Source: Thermodesulfovibrio sp.
Lineage (GTDB): Bacteria > Nitrospirota > Thermodesulfovibrionia > Thermodesulfovibrionales > Thermodesulfovibrionaceae
Assembly: GCA_025057595.1 (NCBI GenBank)
Contig: JANXBK010000003.1
Span: 1-64,000, forward strand
DNA length: 64,000 bases
Direction: 5' to 3'
Shown: one piece after another, positions 12,855 through 27,804 of the stretch
Numbering within the stretch: the first letter of the stretch is position 1
How the letters are laid out: each line of letters opens with the position of its first letter
The notes under the pieces: model-generated
Databases searched by the model: none
Told to the model about the DNA's origin: nothing
The model's input: the letters and a program-made list of their open reading frames with translations, nothing else
Position numbers and translations under genes: made by a program

Positions 12855-13841
12855 TCAGTAATGTGATAGTTTTGTTAACTGTCCTGCATAAACTATCGCT
12901 GCTCTCAAAATAAATGAGCCTACAACTACGAGAACCGCGGCTAAATTCATTCTGAAAACTTGAGACTTTGTAAAATCACCCTGAAATCCTCCCTCAAACT
13001 CCCTTAATTCACCGATTTTAATTCTTAATGCGAGAGGTAAAAGTAAAAATATAGATATTAGTGCCAAAGAGAAAATAAAATGTTCACTCGTAAAGGAAAA
13101 GAAGGGCTTAATTGCCTTTTTGTATGGTGCGGTAGATGTATACAGACCATAAAAGAAAAGAAGAATAATCACAAGTTCTGCTACAATTAACCATATATCT
13201 ATCTTTGTAAAAAGAAATTTTATTTCTGCTTTTTTTGCAATAACAACAATCATTGCTGCACCAGAAGAAAGTGCTGATACTAAAAACAAAATGGGAAGCG
13301 TAGCATTATTCCATAAGGGTATAGCAGCAAAGGAACTTAAAAGTACACCAGTGTATATCCCTAAAAATATTCCAGCCACAAAATTCCATTTTGCGAGAGC
13401 TCTCACTTTAGAAGCAAGTTTTTCTGACAGTTTTAATAAAAACGGAAATTTTAGACGATATCTTTGTTCCTCAGGAATGACAGCTAATATGTAAAGTGCA
13501 TTTAGCAGTAAAACTATAGGAATTCCCCAAGTACCCCAAGACATAAGAGAAAGAGGCTGAAATGTTAAATAACCCCAAATAAGATTTTGTGGTTTGCCAA
13601 GGTCTAAAATTATAAATAAAGCACCTATTGCCAAAGTTATAAAGGCAATAAAGGGAGCTCTTACACACTTAGCAAGCTCTTTAACAGACTGTTTAGGAAT
13701 TCTTAAGTTAGCAATTGAAGACATCACAAGCATTCCTGCAGAAAGACCACCAAGAAACAAATAAATTATAATTCTCCAATCCCATACCTTTAAATAAGGA
13801 TGCGTTATAGCATTTAATCCTGTTATTGTTATTTCACTCAT
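12855..13841 (-). CDS. psrC: NrfD/PsrC-type membrane subunit of polysulfide/thiosulfate reductase
   Basis: A 328-aa NrfD-family integral membrane protein with about 8-9 hydrophobic segments. The start RIIIYLFLGGLSAGMLVMSS is the family's typical first helix. It would anchor the periplasmic catalytic dimer and exchange electrons with the quinone pool. It is the third gene of a psrA-psrB-psrC operon, and its ATG overlaps the psrB stop (TAATG). The substrate could be polysulfide, thiosulfate, tetrathionate or similar; the sulfur-rich context favours a sulfur compound. The symbol denotes the family, not proven specificity. Confidence 0.8.
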   Translation of the reverse strand: MSEITITGLNAITHPYLKVWDWRIIIYLFLGGLSAGMLVMSSIANLRIPKQSVKELAKCVRAPFIAFITLAIGALFIILDLGKPQNLIWGYLTFQPLSLMSWGTWGIPIVLLLNALYILAVIPEEQRYRLKFPFLLKLSEKLASKVRALAKWNFVAGIFLGIYTGVLLSSFAAIPLWNNATLPILFLVSALSSGAAMIVVIAKKAEIKFLFTKIDIWLIVAELVIILLFFYGLYTSTAPYKKAIKPFFSFTSEHFIFSLALISIFLLLPLALRIKIGELREFEGGFQGDFTKSQVFRMNLAAVLVVVGSFILRAAIVYAGQLTKLSHY

Positions 13842-14398
13842 TATAGACCTCCAGTAAAACTTCTTTTAATATAAAAGACTCGCGGTTGTGTTCCTGCAAA
13901 CTCAAGCCTCACTGAAAAATCGTGTCTTCTTAAAAGCTCAACTACTTCACTACTTAGATTATCAAGATCTCCAAATATTCTTGATTTTCCAAGACATGTT
14001 TCAACACAAGCAGGCTTTTTACCTTCCTTAAGTCTATGTTCACAGAAGGAACATTTATCTGCAAATCCTTCTGGATGGGAGTATCTGGCATCATAGGGAC
14101 ATGCTAAAATACATGCTTTACAACCTATACATTTTTTTCTGTCTATCTGAACAGTCCCATCTTTTGCTCTATGAGATGCTCTTGTTGGACAAGCATCAAT
14201 ACAAGGCGCGTTTTCACAATGATTACAAAGTTCGCTTCTTAACTCCATTCTAAGATTAGGAAATTCCCCTCTTACTTCCTCAACCACTCTAGTTCTAAAA
14301 TGTTTCTCTGGAACATTGTTTTCTTTTTTACAGGCAATCACACAAGCCATACAGCCAATGCATCTTTCAATATCTATTACCATTACGTATTTTGGCAT
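13841..14398 (-). CDS. psrB: four-cluster ferredoxin subunit, PsrB/PhsB type
   Basis: A 185-aa electron-transfer subunit with four 4Fe-4S motifs: CIGCMACVIACKKEN, CNHCENAPCIDACPTRA, CIGCKACILACPYDARY, and CSFCEHRLKEG followed by CVETC. It would carry electrons between the NrfD membrane subunit and the molybdenum subunit. It has no signal of its own, as expected for a partner co-exported with a Tat substrate. It sits 1 bp after psrA and is flanked by psrC, in the canonical order. Confidence 0.9.
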   Translation of the reverse strand: MPKYVMVIDIERCIGCMACVIACKKENNVPEKHFRTRVVEEVRGEFPNLRMELRSELCNHCENAPCIDACPTRASHRAKDGTVQIDRKKCIGCKACILACPYDARYSHPEGFADKCSFCEHRLKEGKKPACVETCLGKSRIFGDLDNLSSEVVELLRRHDFSVRLEFAGTQPRVFYIKRSFTGGL

Positions 14399-14399
14399 T

Positions 14400-16589
14400 C
14401 TAAACCTCCTTTGTTATCTTTACGAAGTTCACTCTCATTCCAACAGTTCCTGCAATCGGATCAACTGCATATCTTGTTATCAACTGCTGATCATCAGCAC
14501 CTCTTAGATATGCTCTACGGAGAAATCTTGATGTTGAGCCAAATCCGTGAACGAGATATATGCAGTCTGGTCTAATTCTTTCTGTAACCTTAGCTTTTAC
14601 TTTATTACTTTTAATGCCATCTTGATTAACTAAAACTATATACTCACCATGATTAAGTCCGATTTTTTTAGCAACCTTTGTATTTATCCATGCTACGTTT
14701 TCCTCCATAAGCTCCCATAAAGAAGGATTATTTATAGTTCTTGAAAAGGTGTGTACAGGTGCTCTTCCATAGATAAGTCTAAACCACCCCTCTGGTGGTT
14801 GCTCATGTTTTGTGTATTTTGGAATAGGATCAAAACCATGTCTTTTTAATTCTTGACTGTAAAGCTCAATCTTTCCTGAAGGTGTCTTAAATTTATAATT
14901 TTCATCTGGTAGTAGGTAGGGTTTGGAACTTTCTGGAATTTCAATATATCCTTTTTTAACAAGCTCAGAATAATCAACTCCCCAAATCTGGGCTTTTGTT
15001 TTTAAGAACTCTTCGAGCGTATTCCAGGGGAAGTAGTCCTCAAGTCCGAGTCTTTTCCCAAGTTCTTTAGCTATCCACCAACCAGGTTTTGTCTCATACA
15101 TTGGCTGAACAACAGGTTGACGAAGTGATACTCCAAGAGCTCTTTCTTTAACAACAAAAAAATCATCATGTCTTTCAAGATAAGTACATTCAGGAAGCAC
15201 AACATCTGCAAGCATTACACCATCATAAGGCATTATATCAACTGCTACAACTAAATCAAGTTTTTCTAAAGCTTTAATAGTATCTTTCTGATTAGGCATC
15301 GCCTTCATTATATTCGTTCCAGTTATAAACCATGCCTTTATTGGATATGGCTGTTCTGTGAGAGTTGCCTTTACAATAACATGTGTCAAACCCTCATCGC
15401 CTGCGAAAGGATAGTTTCCTTTATTTAGCTCTGGCTTATGCTCAGGATAGTCTTTCTCAGAAAGAAAGACTGGTTCTAGTTTCTTCTTAGGACTAAGATA
15501 TATTCCTCCTGGTCTTCCATAGGCTCCTAGGAGCGCTACAAGAATAGCAATTGCACGTTGTCTTTGAACATTGTCAGAGTACCATGCAGTATGTCTTCCT
15601 GGATGTATTAGTACATTAGGTTTATTTTTCCCTAATACCCTCGCAGTCTCAATGATAAGAGTTGCGGGAATGTCAGTTTCCTTTTCAGCCCACTGAGGTG
15701 TGTATTCTTTGACAGCCTGTGCGAGTTCATTGAAGCCTAAGGTATATCTTGCAACATAGTCTTTATCATAAAGTCCTTCATTTATAATTATATTTATCCA
15801 TGCAAGTAATATGGCCAAATCAGTTGCAGGTTTTATTGGCAACCAATATTTTGCTTTTCCAGCAGCAGTTGAAAATCTCGGATCTAAAACTATAACTGTA
15901 GCACCCTTTCCAACAGCCTCTGCAAATTCTTGACATTGCGAGTTATGGGCATTCTCACCAAGATGGCTTCCAATAAGAACAATTACTTTGCTGTTTTGTA
16001 TATCAATCCTTTCTGGATTTCCCACAGCCTCGCCAAAGGTTATTTCAAAAGCTGTATCTCTTGCTCCTCTACAAAGTGCAAAGGATGGAAAAGCAAAATT
16101 TGGTGAGCCAAAAGCTTGAAGCAGATGTATAAAATATGTTGATATACTTCCATGAGTAAGAAGAGCTATTGATTCTGGTCCATATTTTTCTTTGATTTTT
16201 TGCATTTTATCTGCTATATATCCTAATGCCTCATCCCATGAGACTTTCTTAAACTTTCCTTCTGCTTTTGCTCCTGTATTGATAAGGGGTGTTTTTAATC
16301 TGTCTTGGTCATAGAGTAACCCTATTCCTCCATGTCCTCTTGCACAAAGTTTGCCTCTTGAATTGGGATGAATTGGATTTCCATCAAGCTTAACAACCTT
16401 ACCATCAACTACCTTTGCGATAGCACCACATCTCCAAAAACACATCTCACAAGTAGTAGGAATATATTGAGGTAAAGAGACAGGTCTCTTACCGAGAGCT
16501 AAAACTGTTTTTACTACAGAATTAGTCGCTACTGCTGCACCACCCGCTGTAGCTGCAATTTTGAGAAAATCCCTTCGGCTAAGATCCAT
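14400..16589 (-). CDS. psrA: Tat-exported molybdopterin oxidoreductase, PsrA/PhsA type
   Basis: A 729-aa catalytic subunit of the DMSO-reductase superfamily. The twin-arginine signal SRRDFLKIAATAGG is at residues 4-17. The Fe-S ligands are C47, C50, C54 and C82. The molybdenum ligand is probably Cys173 in FALCRGARDT, as in polysulfide and thiosulfate reductases. Pterin-binding blocks follow (GSHLGENAHNSQ, LDPRFSTAAGKAKYW, FITGTNIMKAMPN). It probably reduces, or in reverse forms, polysulfide or thiosulfate in the periplasm. Arsenate or tetrathionate enzymes of the same superfamily are the alternatives. It is divergent from the Rieske operon. Confidence 0.88.
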   Translation of the reverse strand: MDLSRRDFLKIAATAGGAAVATNSVVKTVLALGKRPVSLPQYIPTTCEMCFWRCGAIAKVVDGKVVKLDGNPIHPNSRGKLCARGHGGIGLLYDQDRLKTPLINTGAKAEGKFKKVSWDEALGYIADKMQKIKEKYGPESIALLTHGSISTYFIHLLQAFGSPNFAFPSFALCRGARDTAFEITFGEAVGNPERIDIQNSKVIVLIGSHLGENAHNSQCQEFAEAVGKGATVIVLDPRFSTAAGKAKYWLPIKPATDLAILLAWINIIINEGLYDKDYVARYTLGFNELAQAVKEYTPQWAEKETDIPATLIIETARVLGKNKPNVLIHPGRHTAWYSDNVQRQRAIAILVALLGAYGRPGGIYLSPKKKLEPVFLSEKDYPEHKPELNKGNYPFAGDEGLTHVIVKATLTEQPYPIKAWFITGTNIMKAMPNQKDTIKALEKLDLVVAVDIMPYDGVMLADVVLPECTYLERHDDFFVVKERALGVSLRQPVVQPMYETKPGWWIAKELGKRLGLEDYFPWNTLEEFLKTKAQIWGVDYSELVKKGYIEIPESSKPYLLPDENYKFKTPSGKIELYSQELKRHGFDPIPKYTKHEQPPEGWFRLIYGRAPVHTFSRTINNPSLWELMEENVAWINTKVAKKIGLNHGEYIVLVNQDGIKSNKVKAKVTERIRPDCIYLVHGFGSTSRFLRRAYLRGADDQQLITRYAVDPIAGTVGMRVNFVKITKEV

Positions 16590-21837: not shown

Positions 21838-23733
21838 TTAGATTTGTTTAAATATATCATAATCAGGATTATGAATTAAAACTCTTTTTATCTTTCTTAT
21901 CTCGTCTTCATTAATTTTGTTTTTAAGTGTCTTAAGTTTCTTAAGATTTTTCTGGTAGATTTTCTCATATTTTCTATATTTATCTTGGTCAACCCTAATA
22001 CTGAAATCACCAGATATGAACCATTTATCGGTAAGATAAATCCAAGAGGCAAAATCAGATAGCTCAAATCCTGGCAACACTTTAATCTTACTATGCCAAA
22101 AATCTTTTAACCTGAGTCCATTTTCATCAGCAACTATCTTATAACCACCTTTGAATGGTTCTGCACCTTGAGTATCTTCAAACTGCCAAGTAGATATTGA
22201 AATCTGCTGTTTTTTGTGACAACTCCTACAGTCTCTTGCTTTTCCAAAGGGATGAGCTACCTCTTCAATCTGTATCCATAAGATATGTTTATTTGCAGAT
22301 GGAAGTCCATCAAAAGTACCAATTATGGCATACATATCTCTTGTTTCACCATTACTCCATCTGTATTTTATTCCTGTCGGTGACACATCCTTCTTTATAT
22401 TACCCACACTATGAGGAAAAATCTTTACAGGAAACCATATACCTTTTTGATCTTTCATTAAAATTAAAGGCTTCTGAACTCCATAATAAAGAGAATATTT
22501 TTTAAAGGGAGTAGGTTTTTCTCCAATATAACCCTTTCCCCAAACTGTTATCTGATATCCTCCTGCTTCTGTGACATGGCAAGCCGTACATGTAAGATTC
22601 TTATGTATAGATTTTGCATGTGCCTTCTCTACTTCAATATGACAATCTCCACATGTTGCCCTTCTTTGTATATCTCCCATACCTTTTTTACCAGTCGGAT
22701 GACATTCTACACAATGAATTCCTTTTGTAAAATGAGTATCTGGTTTTCTTCCTTGGGGAACTGAATAGAATCCTCCGATATAGGTCTCTCCTCTTCTTGA
22801 ATGGGCAGAGCCTGCATGACACATTGAATTACCCCTTCCCTTTCCCATACAGCTATAAGAATCAGGCACTTTTATGAAAGAGTGACCTTTGTTGTTGCTT
22901 GGTGCGTAATGACAGTCAATACATCCTGCATGGCATATATTACAAAGTCTTTGTTTTGTTATTGCTTGCTCATCTGTAAAGGGTATATTCATTTCTTTTC
23001 TTATTTTTTCAGTATTTGTAAAATCAAACTCTGCGCTTCTAAGAACTTCTGTGGGTGGTAAATCTGCAAAAGATGGTCCACAATTATGTGGTCCATATGG
23101 CTCAAACCAGCTTCGCATTGTTCTTTGACGAAAGTTTGTTCCCATAATTGTAGTTTTAAACTGTTTTAGTTCTTCTGAGTGGCAGCCCCTTTTTCCACAT
23201 GTTTTTTCTGCTATTTTAGGGTCAAAGTTAAAAGTATAGTTGTTTCTATCATGCCATAAAATATTTCTTATATCAGGATGAAGAGATAAATTACCATTTT
23301 CTTTCTTTTTAGGTAAAAGCTCAAATAGACTATTTTCACCAGAGGGTTGTATTCTATTTAAATCAGTTTCATTTTTACTATATATTTTGTTTCTCTCAAT
23401 AGGCTCTGCACTCTCATTTACAAAGATGAGTTTTAACATTCCTTTGTGAGCTTTATCTTTATCAAAAGCTCTTCCATTACCAAGATGACAGTCTCTGCAT
23501 TGAACAGTTTTATGTCCACTTTGTTTTCTAACCTCATCAACAGTTACATAAAACTGAGGATAGCCAAGTTGAGTCATTTTTTCTCTTGAACCGTGACAAC
23601 TGATACAACTTTCAGAGGAATCCATATAGTATTGATACGCTAAAAAGCCAATAATAAATAAAAATTGTGCAAAAAAGATCGTTACAGTAAGAGGAGTTGC
23701 CAGATCACTAATCTTGCCGAGTTTAAAGGACAT
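21838..23733 (-). CDS. membrane-anchored multihaem cytochrome c, about ten haem sites
   Basis: A 631-aa protein with one N-terminal membrane helix (about 14-36) and a large periplasmic domain. Eight CxxCH motifs are at residues 43, 79, 264, 271, 341, 361, 382 and 502. Two further candidate sites are non-standard: CX4CH at 179-185 and CX9CH at 295-306. The C-terminal 100 residues have no cysteines and end in a coiled, lysine-rich tail. I do not recognise a close family. It may shuttle or exchange electrons with a sulfur- or metal-transforming enzyme. It is separated from the upstream triple rhodanese by a short hairpin. Confidence 0.85.
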   Translation of the reverse strand: MSFKLGKISDLATPLTVTIFFAQFLFIIGFLAYQYYMDSSESCISCHGSREKMTQLGYPQFYVTVDEVRKQSGHKTVQCRDCHLGNGRAFDKDKAHKGMLKLIFVNESAEPIERNKIYSKNETDLNRIQPSGENSLFELLPKKKENGNLSLHPDIRNILWHDRNNYTFNFDPKIAEKTCGKRGCHSEELKQFKTTIMGTNFRQRTMRSWFEPYGPHNCGPSFADLPPTEVLRSAEFDFTNTEKIRKEMNIPFTDEQAITKQRLCNICHAGCIDCHYAPSNNKGHSFIKVPDSYSCMGKGRGNSMCHAGSAHSRRGETYIGGFYSVPQGRKPDTHFTKGIHCVECHPTGKKGMGDIQRRATCGDCHIEVEKAHAKSIHKNLTCTACHVTEAGGYQITVWGKGYIGEKPTPFKKYSLYYGVQKPLILMKDQKGIWFPVKIFPHSVGNIKKDVSPTGIKYRWSNGETRDMYAIIGTFDGLPSANKHILWIQIEEVAHPFGKARDCRSCHKKQQISISTWQFEDTQGAEPFKGGYKIVADENGLRLKDFWHSKIKVLPGFELSDFASWIYLTDKWFISGDFSIRVDQDKYRKYEKIYQKNLKKLKTLKNKINEDEIRKIKRVLIHNPDYDIFKQI

Positions 23734-23753
23734 TAAAAATTATAGCAGACAAA

Positions 23754-23769
23754 GGAGGCATAAGCCTCC
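23754..23769 (-). terminator. weak hairpin between triple rhodanese and multihaem cytochrome
   Basis: On the minus strand GGAGGC and GCCTCC form a 6-bp stem with a TTAT loop followed by TTTG. The T-run is short, so it may only attenuate transcription into the cytochrome gene or protect the upstream message. Confidence 0.45.
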
Positions 23770-23775
23770 CCTTGT

Positions 23776-25131
23776 TTAATCTTCTGCTATAATTCTATAT
23801 TTTCCAGCCTTATCAATCTGAATAGTGGCATTAAGAAATCTTACTTTATAGCCCTTTTCTTTAAGTATATTATAAGCCATCTCTGCTCTTAATCCAGTTG
23901 CACAATGAGTTATAATTTCCTTGTCTTTTGGAATCTCATTCAATCTACTTTCTATCTCTTGAACAGGTATGTTTTTAGCACCTTTAAGCATTCCTTCCTG
24001 TACCTCTTCTACATCTCTGACATCAATTATTAGTTTATCCTTTGGTAAAGTGGCAACTATTTTTTCAAATTCAACTATAGGAATTGAACCAGGCTTTGGT
24101 TTAGGAATATAAACTATTTCAGACTTAAGTTGACCACTTAAAACTGGATAGTTAGCTTTTTTCCATGCCTCGATGCCACCTAATATGTAGGATGTATTAA
24201 TATATCCCCATCCTCTTACTACTTGAAAAGCTTGTTGAGAGAGTTTATCTAACTTACAGTATATTAGAATTGGTGCTCCTTTTTTAGCTGGGAATTTATC
24301 TTTCCACTTTTCAAGCTCTACTAAAGGTATATTTACAGCTCCTGGAATATGTTCTTTCTCCGCTTCCTCTTTTGACCTTACATCAATCAAAACAAAGGAA
24401 AGATCTTTATCTATAAGCTCTTTAACATAACTTACTGTTGATGCAACTGGATAGCCTCTTTGTTTCCAATCAGGCATTCCATCATGATATACTTTTGCAT
24501 TTGTATATCCAAGTGTTTCGGCTCTACGAAGAGATGCTGGACTCAAAGCACAGTGAGTTCCACCACAGTAAAATACTATTAACTCATTTTTGTCTTTGGG
24601 TAATTTGTCTAAATGTTTGTCAAACTCACTCCACCAGATATTGATTGCTCCAGGAATATGTCCTTCATGATATCTTCCAGGAGGTCTTGAATCAACTATA
24701 AGAGCCTTTTTATCCTCCACTAACTTTTTAACCTCATCACCCTTAATTATCTTTGACGGATCAAGTTTCTGTGGAGGTTTTACATTGACAGATACTGCAT
24801 ACAATTCTCCATTTTTTAGGATAGTCTGAATTAAAATCTCTTTGTCTTTTGGAATTTTACTGATTGGCTGTGTCCAGTTGATAGTTTTTGTTTTTTCATC
24901 AAATTTGACTGTCCATAAAGCTCCGGTATCAATTTGAATTAACTCAGCTTTTGCCGAAGCACTTTTTAAATATCCCCATAACTCTCCTTGTTTAGCAGTA
25001 TGACAACCCGGTGCTGTGCAGGGCTTTGCAATTATTGGTTTTTCCTGTGAAATACTTTGAGAGATTACAAAAGCAAATCCCACAAGTAGTAAAACTATAA
25101 GCTGACTTAAAATTAAAGCTTTACCTTTCAT
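23776..25131 (-). CDS. exported triple-rhodanese protein with N-terminal CX4CH site
   Basis: A 451-aa protein. A signal or anchor helix (about 5-25) is followed by CTAPGCH (C38, C43, H44), a CX4CH haem-like site, a small domain to about 120, and three rhodanese domains. Their loops have Cys189 (FYCGGTHCA), Cys292 (IYCKLDKLS) and Cys410 (THCATGLRA), so all three could carry persulfide. I chose ATG 25131 because GGGGGAT precedes it; the frame is open to 25209. It probably moves sulfane sulfur in the periplasm. It faces the two rhodanese genes across a shared control region. Confidence 0.87.
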   Translation of the reverse strand: MKGKALILSQLIVLLLVGFAFVISQSISQEKPIIAKPCTAPGCHTAKQGELWGYLKSASAKAELIQIDTGALWTVKFDEKTKTINWTQPISKIPKDKEILIQTILKNGELYAVSVNVKPPQKLDPSKIIKGDEVKKLVEDKKALIVDSRPPGRYHEGHIPGAINIWWSEFDKHLDKLPKDKNELIVFYCGGTHCALSPASLRRAETLGYTNAKVYHDGMPDWKQRGYPVASTVSYVKELIDKDLSFVLIDVRSKEEAEKEHIPGAVNIPLVELEKWKDKFPAKKGAPILIYCKLDKLSQQAFQVVRGWGYINTSYILGGIEAWKKANYPVLSGQLKSEIVYIPKPKPGSIPIVEFEKIVATLPKDKLIIDVRDVEEVQEGMLKGAKNIPVQEIESRLNEIPKDKEIITHCATGLRAEMAYNILKEKGYKVRFLNATIQIDKAGKYRIIAED

Positions 25132-25219
25132 AGGATCCCCCATTTCTTTTTTTAAGACTAACAGAAAAACTAAAATTTTGTCAATAGCCTTAACCCGTAT
25201 ATTAAACAATAAAATAGAG

Positions 25220-25249
25220 TTGATTTAAGTTATAATTTTGTTATATACT
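25220..25249 (+). promoter_or_regulatory. sigma70-type promoter of the rhodanese operon
   Basis: TTGATT (25220-25225) and TATACT (25244-25249) are separated by 18 bp. Transcription would begin near 25256, at the edge of the palindromes that follow, an arrangement in which a bound repressor would block initiation. Confidence 0.5.
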
Positions 25250-25255
25250 CCTATA

Positions 25256-25284
25256 TAGTACTAGTACTACCTGCGTTGCAGGTA
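25256..25284. promoter_or_regulatory. two abutting palindromes, candidate CstR-type operator
   Basis: TAGTACTAGTACTA (25256-25269) is a perfect 14-bp palindrome. TACCTGC-GTT-GCAGGTA (25268-25284) is a perfect 7-3-7 inverted repeat overlapping it by two bases. CsoR/CstR-family operators are GC-centred inverted repeats flanked by TA/AT ends, which the second resembles. The site lies just downstream of the predicted start point. The likely regulator is encoded at 26354. Confidence 0.55.
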
Positions 25285-25309
25285 TAAAATTTAATTCCAG
25301 GAGGACAAA

Positions 25310-25774
25310 ATGAGAGGAGGAAGAGTTACACTTTTAGTAGGCTTAGTTATCTTGTTTTTAACCAATTATGTGTTTGCAGCTACTCCTTTAAGTGAGGAGA
25401 GAGTTAAAGAGGCTAAACAGTGTGGAATTCAAGAGATCGATATAAGTGGAGCTAAACAGTTAATAAAAAAAGGAGCAATACTCTTAGATGTTAGAGAGTA
25501 TACAGAGTATACAGCGGGTCATCTTCCAGATGCACTATGGACGCCGAGAGGATTAATAGATTTTAGAGCTTATGAATGGTTGCCTGATAAAGAAAAGATT
25601 TATATTGTCTATTGTAAGTCAGGAGCAAGAGGAACCATTGTAACATGTGATCTTAAAAAGTTAGGATATAAAAATGTATACAATTTAAAGGGCGGTTATG
25701 ATGCATGGGTAAATGCTGGTGAACCCGTAGAAAAAGGAGAACCCCAGGGAATGGGGAAAGGTATTAAAAAATAA
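25310..25774 (+). CDS. secreted single-domain rhodanese
   Basis: A 154-aa protein with a signal peptide (hydrophobic 7-20, cleavage near VFAA) and one rhodanese domain. LLDVREYTEYTAGHLPDA and the active loop YCKSGARG (Cys102) are intact, as is the NLKGGYDAW end. It would carry a cysteine persulfide in the periplasm. AGGAGG precedes the ATG. It is the first gene after the palindromic control region and lies 16 bp before a second rhodanese. Confidence 0.9.
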   Translation: MRGGRVTLLVGLVILFLTNYVFAATPLSEERVKEAKQCGIQEIDISGAKQLIKKGAILLDVREYTEYTAGHLPDALWTPRGLIDFRAYEWLPDKEKIYIVYCKSGARGTIVTCDLKKLGYKNVYNLKGGYDAWVNAGEPVEKGEPQGMGKGIKK

Positions 25775-25790
25775 TTATGGAGGTGTTAAG

Positions 25791-26258
25791 ATGAAAACTC
25801 TATTAACAATTTTAACTCTTTTATTCTTCGTAACTTCAGCTTTTGCTTACGATGCAGAGCTTGCAAAAAGGTTTGATGCGATGTTTTCTCAGATGACACC
25901 TGAAGTTCTTACTCTGAGACCCTGTCAGATAACAACAAAGGATATTCTGGATATGATTAAAAAGAAAGAGGACTTTGTAATTCTTGACATAAGAACTCCG
26001 GCAGAGACAAAGCTTATAGCTCCTGTATGGAAAGGCTCTTTACTAATTCCTATGCATGAACTTTTCAAACCTCACAACCTTGCAAAGCTTCCAAAAGACA
26101 AAAAAATTGCTGTGCTTTGTCATACAGGAGACAGAGCTGCAGCTACAACAATAGCTCTTAGAGCAATAGGATTTACAAATGCTTACCAATTTAAGGGTGG
26201 CATCGCAGAGTTTGCCAAAGAAATTGGAAGAACAGCTACTGAATATATAAAAGATTAG
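25791..26258 (+). CDS. secreted single-domain rhodanese
   Basis: A 155-aa protein with a signal peptide (cleavage near AFAY) and a rhodanese domain. ILDIRTPAET and the active loop LCHTGDRA (Cys110) are present, with FKGGIAEF at the end. The domain is shorter and diverged from the upstream copy, so the two are not a recent duplication. An extra cysteine at 45 (LRPCQIT) precedes the domain. It is followed by a perfect hairpin terminator, so the cstR-like gene may be partly insulated. Confidence 0.9.
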   Translation: MKTLLTILTLLFFVTSAFAYDAELAKRFDAMFSQMTPEVLTLRPCQITTKDILDMIKKKEDFVILDIRTPAETKLIAPVWKGSLLIPMHELFKPHNLAKLPKDKKIAVLCHTGDRAAATTIALRAIGFTNAYQFKGGIAEFAKEIGRTATEYIKD

Positions 26259-26307
26259 TTTTAAAATAAGAATAAGAAAGATTAATTTTAAAATTACATT
26301 AAGAGAG

Positions 26308-26335
26308 TAGGGAGGAGTATTCCTCCCTAATATTT
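26308..26335 (+). terminator. hairpin terminator after the rhodanese pair
   Basis: TAGGGAGGA pairs perfectly with TCCTCCCTA around a GTAT loop, followed by the T-rich ATATTTTATTA. It lies between the second rhodanese and the cstR-like gene. No convincing promoter is visible between it and the regulator's ATG, so read-through may express the regulator. Confidence 0.75.
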
Positions 26336-26353
26336 TATTATTAAGGAGAAAGT

Positions 26354-26614
26354 ATGGGAGAGGAGAAAACAAAACTTTTCAAAAGACTTAAAAAAATCGA
26401 AGGACAGATAAAGGGACTTCAGAAGATGATTCACCAAGATAGAAGTTGTGAAGAAATAATAACTCAACTGTCTTCAATAAGTGGTGCACTAAAAGGTGTA
26501 GGAATGATGATTATCAAGATCTATCTAAAGGAGTGTTTACAAAAGGGAAAATCTATTGAAGAGATTGAAAGAGAATTTCAAAAGATTATTAAAAGATTTA
26601 TTGTAAATTTATAG
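26354..26614 (+). CDS. CsoR/RcnR-family repressor, CstR-like persulfide sensor
   Basis: An 86-aa all-helical DUF156 regulator. The DNA-binding face KLFKRLKKIEGQIKGLQKMI is typical. Of the metal or thiol positions, Cys32 (RSCEEI) and Cys61 (LKECL) are kept with 29-residue spacing, but the copper-binding His four residues before the second Cys is Tyr57. This Cys-X-Cys pattern without His marks CstR-type sensors of persulfide and sulfane sulfur, not copper-sensing CsoR. Lying between rhodanese and ferredoxin genes, it probably represses the locus through the palindromes at 25256. Confidence 0.85.
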   Translation: MGEEKTKLFKRLKKIEGQIKGLQKMIHQDRSCEEIITQLSSISGALKGVGMMIIKIYLKECLQKGKSIEEIEREFQKIIKRFIVNL

Positions 26615-26631
26615 ATTTTCGGAGGACAATT

Positions 26632-27390
26632 GTGTCCATTACAAGAAGAGAATTCTTAGCCATATCTTCAACTCTATGTGCTTTTCTAATCTTTGGTAAA
26701 GAGGCTGAAGCTTTAGAAGGCAAATATGCTACTATTATTGATATAACTAAATGTGATGGTTGTAAAGATGAACCTATTCCAAGATGTGTAAAGGCTTGTA
26801 AAGAGTATAACAGAGAGAGATTTCCAGAGCCTAAAAAACCTATTCAACCCTATTGGCCTAGAAAAACTTATGAGGATTGGTCTGACCAAAAAGACAGATT
26901 TGATACTTTAACTCCCTATAATTGGATTTTTATTCAAAGAGTGAATATAGATGGAAAGGAAATAAATATCCCACGAAGATGTATGCATTGTGATAGTCCT
27001 CCTTGTGTAAGAGAATGTCCTTTTGGAGCTCTTACTAAACAACCAGAGGGAAATACAGTTATCAATGATAAACTATGTTTTGGAGGAGCAAAATGTAGAG
27101 ATGTTTGTCCATGGCATATTCCACAAAGGCAGGCAGGTGTTGGAATCTATTTAAAAATTCTTCCTAAGTATGCAGGTGGTGGAGTTATGTATAAGTGCGA
27201 TTTATGTAAGGATAGAATAAAAAAAGGACAAATACCAGCCTGTGTTCTAGCTTGTCAGGAGAGATTGGGCAGTAACGCTGTTTTCACCCAGCTTATGAAA
27301 AAGCTAAAAAAGAAAATTTATACATATATGGAGATAAGCAAAATGGTGGAACATCAACCATCTATCTTTCAGAAGTTTCCTTTGAATTAA
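26632..27390 (+). CDS. Tat-exported multi-cluster ferredoxin (DmsB/HybA-like)
   Basis: A 252-aa protein starting at GTG 26632 after CGGAGG. A Tat-type signal (TRREFLAIS plus a hydrophobic stretch) occupies about 4-27. Four 4Fe-4S groups are visible: KCDGC with RCVKACKEYN, CMHCDSPPCVRECPFGA, CFGGAKCRDVCPWHIP, and CDLCKDRI with CVLACQERL. It is an electron-transfer subunit of the type that works with a molybdoenzyme or hydrogenase and a cytochrome b. No catalytic partner is adjacent, so it may serve the multihaem or psr-type proteins nearby, or be the remnant of a lost complex. Confidence 0.88.
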   Translation: MSITRREFLAISSTLCAFLIFGKEAEALEGKYATIIDITKCDGCKDEPIPRCVKACKEYNRERFPEPKKPIQPYWPRKTYEDWSDQKDRFDTLTPYNWIFIQRVNIDGKEINIPRRCMHCDSPPCVRECPFGALTKQPEGNTVINDKLCFGGAKCRDVCPWHIPQRQAGVGIYLKILPKYAGGGVMYKCDLCKDRIKKGQIPACVLACQERLGSNAVFTQLMKKLKKKIYTYMEISKMVEHQPSIFQKFPLN

Positions 27391-27426
27391 TAGAAAAAGT
27401 TTTAAGAGAAAAAAGAAAAATTTCAA

Positions 27427-27804
27427 ATGCCAGTAAAAGTAGAAAATAAAATTCATTCAACATTTAATCCAATAGAAAAGTTTGTCTTATTAGCGGGAGC
27501 TTTATCTATTCCCGCTGCTTTTTTAGCAGGATTTCTCTCTAAAAGTAAATCAAAGCAGGAAAACTATGAAAAACAAAATAAAAAGACATGGGTAGTTTTA
27601 TCTCCCCAGTTAGAATCAATAAATACACTTATTCATACTCTTTCAGGTATTCTCTTTATGTTTGTTTTCATAGTCCATATCTTTTTTGTATTAGCTTTTA
27701 AATCAATTTGGCCGTTACTTAAAAGTATGTTTACTGGATGGGTTGATGAAGATTATATAAAAAAGAGACACCCAATTTGGTATGAAAAAAATAAAGAAAA
27801 TTAA
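27427..27804 (+). CDS. truncated b-type cytochrome subunit (FdnI-like C-terminal half)
   Basis: A 125-aa protein with two hydrophobic helices (about 18-36 and 68-92). TFNPIEK and the end FTGWVDEDYIKKRHPIWYE match the third and fourth helices of formate dehydrogenase gamma-type cytochrome b, including H70 and H84. The first two helices and their haem-ligating His are missing, and no hydrophobic coding remains between the ferredoxin stop and this ATG. It is either a functional half-size membrane anchor for the ferredoxin or a deleted remnant. No clear RBS is seen. Confidence 0.65.
   Translation: MPVKVENKIHSTFNPIEKFVLLAGALSIPAAFLAGFLSKSKSKQENYEKQNKKTWVVLSPQLESINTLIHTLSGILFMFVFIVHIFFVLAFKSIWPLLKSMFTGWVDEDYIKKRHPIWYEKNKEN

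Follow-up and report, generated by a model that had tools for sequence, protein, structure and literature searches.

The window analysed here is a stretch of 64,000 nucleotides (nt) from a Thermodesulfovibrio-like metagenome-assembled genome (MAG), of which 1.17 Mb were recovered (72% complete). Between positions 21838 and 27804 it holds a group of genes around a multihaem cytochrome gene (mhc, 21838..23733) and a triple-rhodanese gene (rhd3, 23776..25131, likely start ATG 25131), both on the minus strand, with rhd3 first in strand order and a gap of 42 nt between them. The open reading frames (ORFs) of a preliminary description of this DNA were confirmed at their coordinates. A divergent control region (25132..25309) separates rhd3 from two plus-strand genes, rhdA (25310..25774) and rhdB (25791..26258), which according to Pfam and the predicted signals encode exported single-domain rhodaneses with Cys102 and Cys110, respectively. 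In the recovered genome only five PF00581 domains were found, three in rhd3 and one each in rhdA and rhdB; each of the three proteins carries an N-terminal signal or anchor, and the five exported rhodanese domains with catalytic Cys described before were thus confirmed. The main point had been missed: the alignments indicate that rhd3 and mhc of the window are the Cys forms of two families of selenoproteins.

The rhd3 product (450 amino acids, aa) has three Pfam rhodanese domains and is predicted to be exported or anchored by its N-terminal signal. Directly past the signal stands a putative c-haem motif, also overlooked earlier, which reads CTAPGCH in the window and takes the form CXXCH or CX4CH in 28 of the 28 rows of the homologue alignment. 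In the AlphaFold2 (AF2) model (mean predicted local distance difference test value, pLDDT, 88) this motif is followed by a small beta domain and then by the three rhodanese domains, and the best matches of the fold search with this model were multi-rhodanese proteins, including 1yt8, EanB and YnjE. Both chalcogen positions are invariant in domain 1 alone, where they correspond to the catalytic Cys194 and to residue 199 (456-aa numbering). The Cys of domain 3 is kept in nearly all rows; beyond the genus, that of domain 2 is not retained.

A single in-frame TGA was observed in 25 of the 28 rhd3 homologues, always in the same alignment column and with homology on both sides. It is invariably the codon of the fifth residue past the catalytic Cys of domain 1, which gives the arrangement C-X4-U (e.g. 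YYCQGPTU, IFYCGGVTU). In the three other rows (the window, G008 and G065) Cys takes the place of selenocysteine (Sec); in the window the codon is TGT (24550..24552, minus strand), and this copy of rhd3 is itself without Sec. A hairpin resembling a selenocysteine insertion sequence (SECIS) starts 16 nt past the UGA. Over the 25 UGA sequences 97.3% of its cells are paired (5-6 of the 6 pairs in each Sec copy), two-sided changes occur in four of the six pairs, and none of 500 shuffles scored as high on paired cells and on covariation. Sliding the partner register lowered the pairing to 41-59%. The hairpin is eroded in all three Cys copies, where four of the six pairs are left; the relic in the window lies at 24505..24549 (minus strand). 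The tree requires three separate changes, hence the Cys replacement arose independently. A sequencing error or a general recoding was ruled out as the source of the TGA by its occurrence once per gene in one column of 25 homologues, by the covarying hairpin and by the replacement with Cys. In-frame TGA codons were also noticed in some single-domain rhodaneses of the order (e.g. in G019, G027, G082 and G088), so that further rhodanese selenoproteins are likely.

Mhc (631 aa) has one N-terminal transmembrane (TM) helix; its candidate haem sites number ten, namely eight CXXCH motifs (residues 43, 79, 264, 271, 341, 361, 382 and 502), one CX4CH (179) and one CX9CH (295), which agrees with the membrane-anchored cytochrome of about ten haem sites reported before. 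All ten motifs, from which haem binding is predicted, are invariant in the 26 orthologue rows used to judge their conservation. They take up 20 of the 21 Cys residues; the exception, C218, is the only invariant Cys outside the haem motifs. In the window it is encoded by TGT (23080..23082, minus strand), without UGA. A phylum-wide search revealed single TGA codons in distant mhc orthologues, and in 12 of the 12 that were read the UGA falls exactly at C218, in the context HGPNNUGPSFAD or YGPQNUGPSFAD (general motif N-(U/C)-GPSFAD). A hairpin begins 20 nt past this UGA, with 6-7 of seven pairs in ten Sec orthologues as opposed to 1-5 of seven in 13 Cys copies; in the two remaining UGA orthologues, both f12 copies, it is found in a shifted register. 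The lone Cys218 is thus the one residue of Mhc at which Sec and Cys replace each other, which commonly marks a catalytic chalcogen. Taken together, it is almost certain from these alignments and hairpins that both families contain Sec members. The TM helix and first haem sites of Mhc (residues 15-99) resemble NrfH/NapC, with a weak match to NrfH (TIGR03153, 26.9 bits with a cut-off of 134.2). A profile search of the PDB gave only weak haem-motif matches to NrfA and NrfH, and Mhc was not assigned as an octahaem sulfite or tetrathionate reductase. A protein of roughly 350-390 aa with a CASCGC motif is encoded near mhc at four loci of f24 genomes.

Of the selenium machinery, SelB above the family cut-off was detected in 27 of the 29 genomes with a UGA-containing rhd3 and in none of the three Cys genomes (Fisher p 0.002). 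One of the two UGA genomes without it is 56% complete and has a partial SelB; the other is G082. SelA, too, was missing in G000 and G065. A tRNA-Sec, as verified with ARAGORN, is present in three members of the genus and in G022. In the recovered 72% of the window genome neither SelB nor SelA nor tRNA-Sec was found, the best match to the tRNA-Sec model being a tRNA-Ser.

The two genes are adjacent in nine Thermodesulfovibrio genomes (the window and eight others), mostly together with one or both single rhodaneses. The relatives that carry a name are for the most part Thermodesulfovibrio or Nitrospirota MAGs. In one relative (L045) the order tudS-zip-wrbA-mhc-rhd3-rhdA-rhdB matches the window, and in G013 remnants of mhc and rhd3 lie side by side. 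Orthologues of mhc occur in many genomes outside the genus, with 52-64% identity. Among 396 Nitrospirota genomes 39 have both genes, 20 only rhd3, 50 only mhc and 287 neither, a co-occurrence above chance with a Fisher p of 2.5e-15, which takes no account of shared ancestry. At five loci of f12 and f13 genomes the Sec-type rhd3 genes adjoin genes of an NtrC-type response regulator and a histidine kinase.

In the control region a dyad, ATACTC-N5-GAGTAT, lies over the -10 element of the rhdA promoter (25245-25261 in the window, with two mismatches) and a hairpin, CCTGC-N3-GCAGG, in the 5'-untranslated region (25268-25284). Both the dyad, at the -10 box of rhdA or rhdB, and the hairpin recur at five further loci of the genus (L045, L047, L048, L049 and L053), the hairpin with compensatory changes.

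Rhd3 and Mhc, each of which combines haem motifs with a Sec/Cys site, may constitute a quinol-linked redox relay which handles sulfane sulfur outside the cytoplasm in the reductive direction; we would give this reading a probability of roughly 45%. Cys194 of Rhd3 would take up sulfane sulfur from thiosulfate, from polysulfide or from RhdA/RhdB as a persulfide. Sec/Cys199 could then attack the persulfide and free sulfide; the S-Se or S-S bond that results would be reduced again by electrons of menaquinol passing through the NrfH/NapC-like N-terminus of Mhc, the Mhc haems and the haem of Rhd3. Sec/Cys218 would give Mhc its own chalcogen site, next to a catalytic haem. The same parts running in reverse could oxidise persulfide; two points favour the reductive direction, namely the similarity of the Mhc N-terminus to quinol dehydrogenases and the reduction of sulfate and thiosulfate by members of the genus Thermodesulfovibrio. 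As had been suggested for the whole locus, the products of mhc, rhd3, rhdA and rhdB are still best understood as handling sulfane sulfur outside the cytoplasm with a cytochrome as electron route; this reading does not extend to the ferredoxin and cytochrome b genes, which are decayed (see below).

Several observations weigh against the reductive relay. No linkage of mhc with rhodaneses was seen outside the genus among 29 mhc loci at the order level and 20 rhd3 loci, so that the expected conservation of the gene pair holds within the genus and fails beyond it, though the two genes co-occur in the phylum. That statistic is itself confounded by shared ancestry, and 50 Nitrospirota genomes have mhc without rhd3. 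Even within the genus the near-complete members G001, G009 and G012 keep mhc and have no rhd3: the complete genomes G009 and G012 retain mhc with rhdA, G001 mhc only. For Mhc the AF2 model is of low quality (mean pLDDT 67), too low to place C218 relative to a haem, and the fold search with this model gave no match. As to the use of selenium, G082 has a UGA-containing rhd3 with neither SelA nor SelB; the C-terminus of this rhd3 is out of frame, which is consistent with an apparent decay after the loss of selenium use. G008 has a Cys-type rhd3 and yet retains SelA and tRNA-Sec; since these are still present, its Cys form is not explained by the loss of the whole machinery.

The scattered distribution could mean that the genes are unrelated neighbours in one genus, Mhc being a stand-alone respiratory cytochrome linked to quinol, and the rhodaneses serving detoxification or sulfur supply. 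The surroundings of mhc agree with this, since it stands among housekeeping genes in the 29 order-level loci and in 20 class- or phylum-level loci, and so do the position of rhd3 beside NtrC-type two-component genes and the many genomes (20 and 50) which have one gene without the other. It is more difficult to reconcile with the adjacency of the genes and the single rhodaneses in nine genomes, the paired remnants in G013, the significant co-occurrence in the phylum and the presence of a Sec/Cys site together with haem motifs in both proteins, and we regard it as doubtful. The direction of the reaction is a separate matter. All parts of the reductive relay could work backwards, in which case sulfane sulfur or sulfide would be oxidised outside the cytoplasm and the electrons would reach menaquinone by way of the haem of Rhd3 and then Mhc; the disproportionation of sulfur or thiosulfate would begin with this oxidation. 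The sulfate- and thiosulfate-reducing lifestyle of the genus speaks against this direction, as does the presence of a reductive enzyme nearby. This enzyme (12855-16589, minus strand; 565.8 bits to PhsA with a cut-off of 694) comprises a PhsA/PsrA-like molybdopterin protein together with Fe-S and NrfD-like subunits and is a candidate reductase of thiosulfate or polysulfide; a reductase such as the psr-type one mentioned earlier does lie nearby, while nothing connects it to the rhodanese-cytochrome locus. Dissulfurispira, of the same order, disproportionates sulfur by a mechanism which is not settled, but the distribution of rhodaneses (of the SseA types) does not track disproportionation (PMC12998232). 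The oxidative direction is on the whole unlikely.

Another explanation is based on the Ext conduits, in which case electrons would be delivered to selenite, tellurite or metals, as has been suggested for the ext cluster of Geobacter, and the rhodanese would trap the chalcogen. It draws on weak NCBIfam matches of Mhc (about residues 247-392) to ExtN and ExtO (NF040967/NF040968), with weaker ones to ExtS and ExtM, and on the Geobacter extHIJKL system, in which a rhodanese lipoprotein of 49 kDa is combined with a porin and with the Sec-containing cytochrome ExtKL (PMC5877670, PMC6148476). The ExtN and ExtO scores are, however, far under the cut-off (less than 30 bits compared with 200), an obvious lipobox is missing from Rhd3, for which none of the Ext models gave a match, and in the loci of the genus there is no ORF between these genes that would be a candidate for a porin; such a conduit appears quite improbable. 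The reductive relay could be extended to a bolder, tentative proposal, in which Rhd3 and Mhc would form a respiratory unit of two selenoproteins, i.e. a molybdenum-free sulfane-sulfur reductase outside the cytoplasm with its Sec sites wired to quinol by haems, widespread in Nitrospirota and present in Cys versions where selenium use was lost. The Sec/Cys exchange marks the likely catalytic residue both of an uncharacterised multihaem cytochrome and of a haem-rhodanese. The two proteins are concrete candidates for an extracytoplasmic chemistry of sulfane sulfur coupled to electron transfer in the sulfate-reducing and sulfur-disproportionating Nitrospirota. Current annotations probably break up or shorten the UGA-containing genes of both families.

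The genes next to rhdB had been described as parts of the same locus. The first of them encodes a CsoR/CstR-family protein of 86 aa (26354..26614, plus strand; Pfam) with C32 and C61. At what we take, from the general CsoR pattern, to be the metal-ligand position, four residues ahead of the second Cys, a Tyr replaces the His. The family assignment of the repressor was therefore correct, its membership in the rhodanese locus was not, as in the relatives it is the partner of a ferredoxin module: a CsoR-family gene stands just before the ferredoxin gene in seven loci, plus an eighth (L106), and the ferredoxin gene is located well away from those of the rhodaneses. In four relative loci that were read fully the ferredoxin has 324-325 aa, and in three of them a cytochrome b of 218-221 aa follows directly. 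Neither is intact in the window. The supposed Tat-exported ferredoxin (26632..27390, plus strand; 252 aa instead of 325) contains two frame shifts past about residue 220, after which the second frame holds the expected ...LYIYGDKQNGGTSTIYLSEVSFELIEKVL. The supposed half-size cytochrome b (27427..27804, plus strand; 125 aa) is a chimeric remnant which retains just residues 151-219, the last third of the protein, joined to the ferredoxin tail. The ferredoxin copy of G013 looks damaged as well. An assembly error, which only the reads could rule out, would have to account for three lesions or more. The ferredoxin and cytochrome b beside the rhodaneses are a separate, decayed module, and their juxtaposition is specific to the window; seven genes acting as one unit were ruled out by the different location of csoR, ferredoxin and cytochrome b in the relatives and by their broken state here. 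Upstream of csoR at six loci of relatives (L108-L113) conserved AAGGGGGTAAGGTAT and TATACC elements surround the promoter, as expected of autoregulation in the CsoR family. The dyad of the rhdA promoter was not found at the csoR promoters, and a common CsoR operator for rhdA and csoR is not claimed.

Sec-containing rhodaneses and multihaem cytochromes are known from other systems. A 2026 review of prokaryotic selenoproteins names five forms of rhodanese (UxxS, UxxG twice, CxU and UxxxxU), and the multihaem cytochromes found in it are ExtKL and an octahaem protein of the tetrathionate-reductase type; neither a C-X4-U haem-rhodanese nor the present ten-haem cytochrome was found there, and a text search of it gave no CxxxxU motif (PMC13188914). 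Full-text searches of a partial library for selenocysteine together with Thermodesulfovibrio or multihaem Nitrospirota gave nothing on either form, as judged by titles and abstracts. Within these limits the sequences point to two new Sec-dependent forms of extracytoplasmic sulfur-handling proteins. TsoB (NF045694, UxxxxU; a protein like a rhodanese/DsbD fusion) is similar to Rhd3 in having Sec in a rhodanese domain and a four-residue spacing of two chalcogens. In Rhd3, however, Cys is retained as the catalytic residue and Sec is confined to the fifth position after it, there are three rhodanese domains with a haem motif, and DsbD is absent; with 88.4 bits against a cut-off of 805 it is not a member of this model. 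Nor is it a member of the CxU model NF041203 (98.4 bits, cut-off 115), its spacing being C-X4-U. YnjE of E. coli and 1yt8 of P. aeruginosa, which are among the best fold matches, have tandem rhodanese domains like Rhd3; to our knowledge they contain neither a haem motif nor Sec.

The quinol dehydrogenases NrfH, NapC and NirT resemble Mhc in that haem sites come after a TM helix at the N-terminus, but Mhc, at 630 aa, has about eight more haem sites, and its score is far under the cut-off. The CsoR-family protein of the window is comparable to CstR and TTHA1953, which belong to the same family, with two Cys and no His as metal ligand. Homologues of CstR often repress rhodaneses (PMC10318464), whereas in the relatives the gene of the window protein adjoins the ferredoxin-cytochrome b pair; persulfide sensing by it is putative. 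The Geobacter extHIJKL locus, like that of the window, encodes an exported rhodanese of 49 kDa (ExtH) beside multihaem cytochromes, one of which (ExtKL) contains Sec. It differs in the porin, which is missing from the window locus, and in the pentahaem nature of ExtKL, while Mhc is a membrane-anchored ten-haem protein. It is nevertheless the nearest system, the likeness being one of composition and weak in sequence (PMC5877670, PMC6148476).

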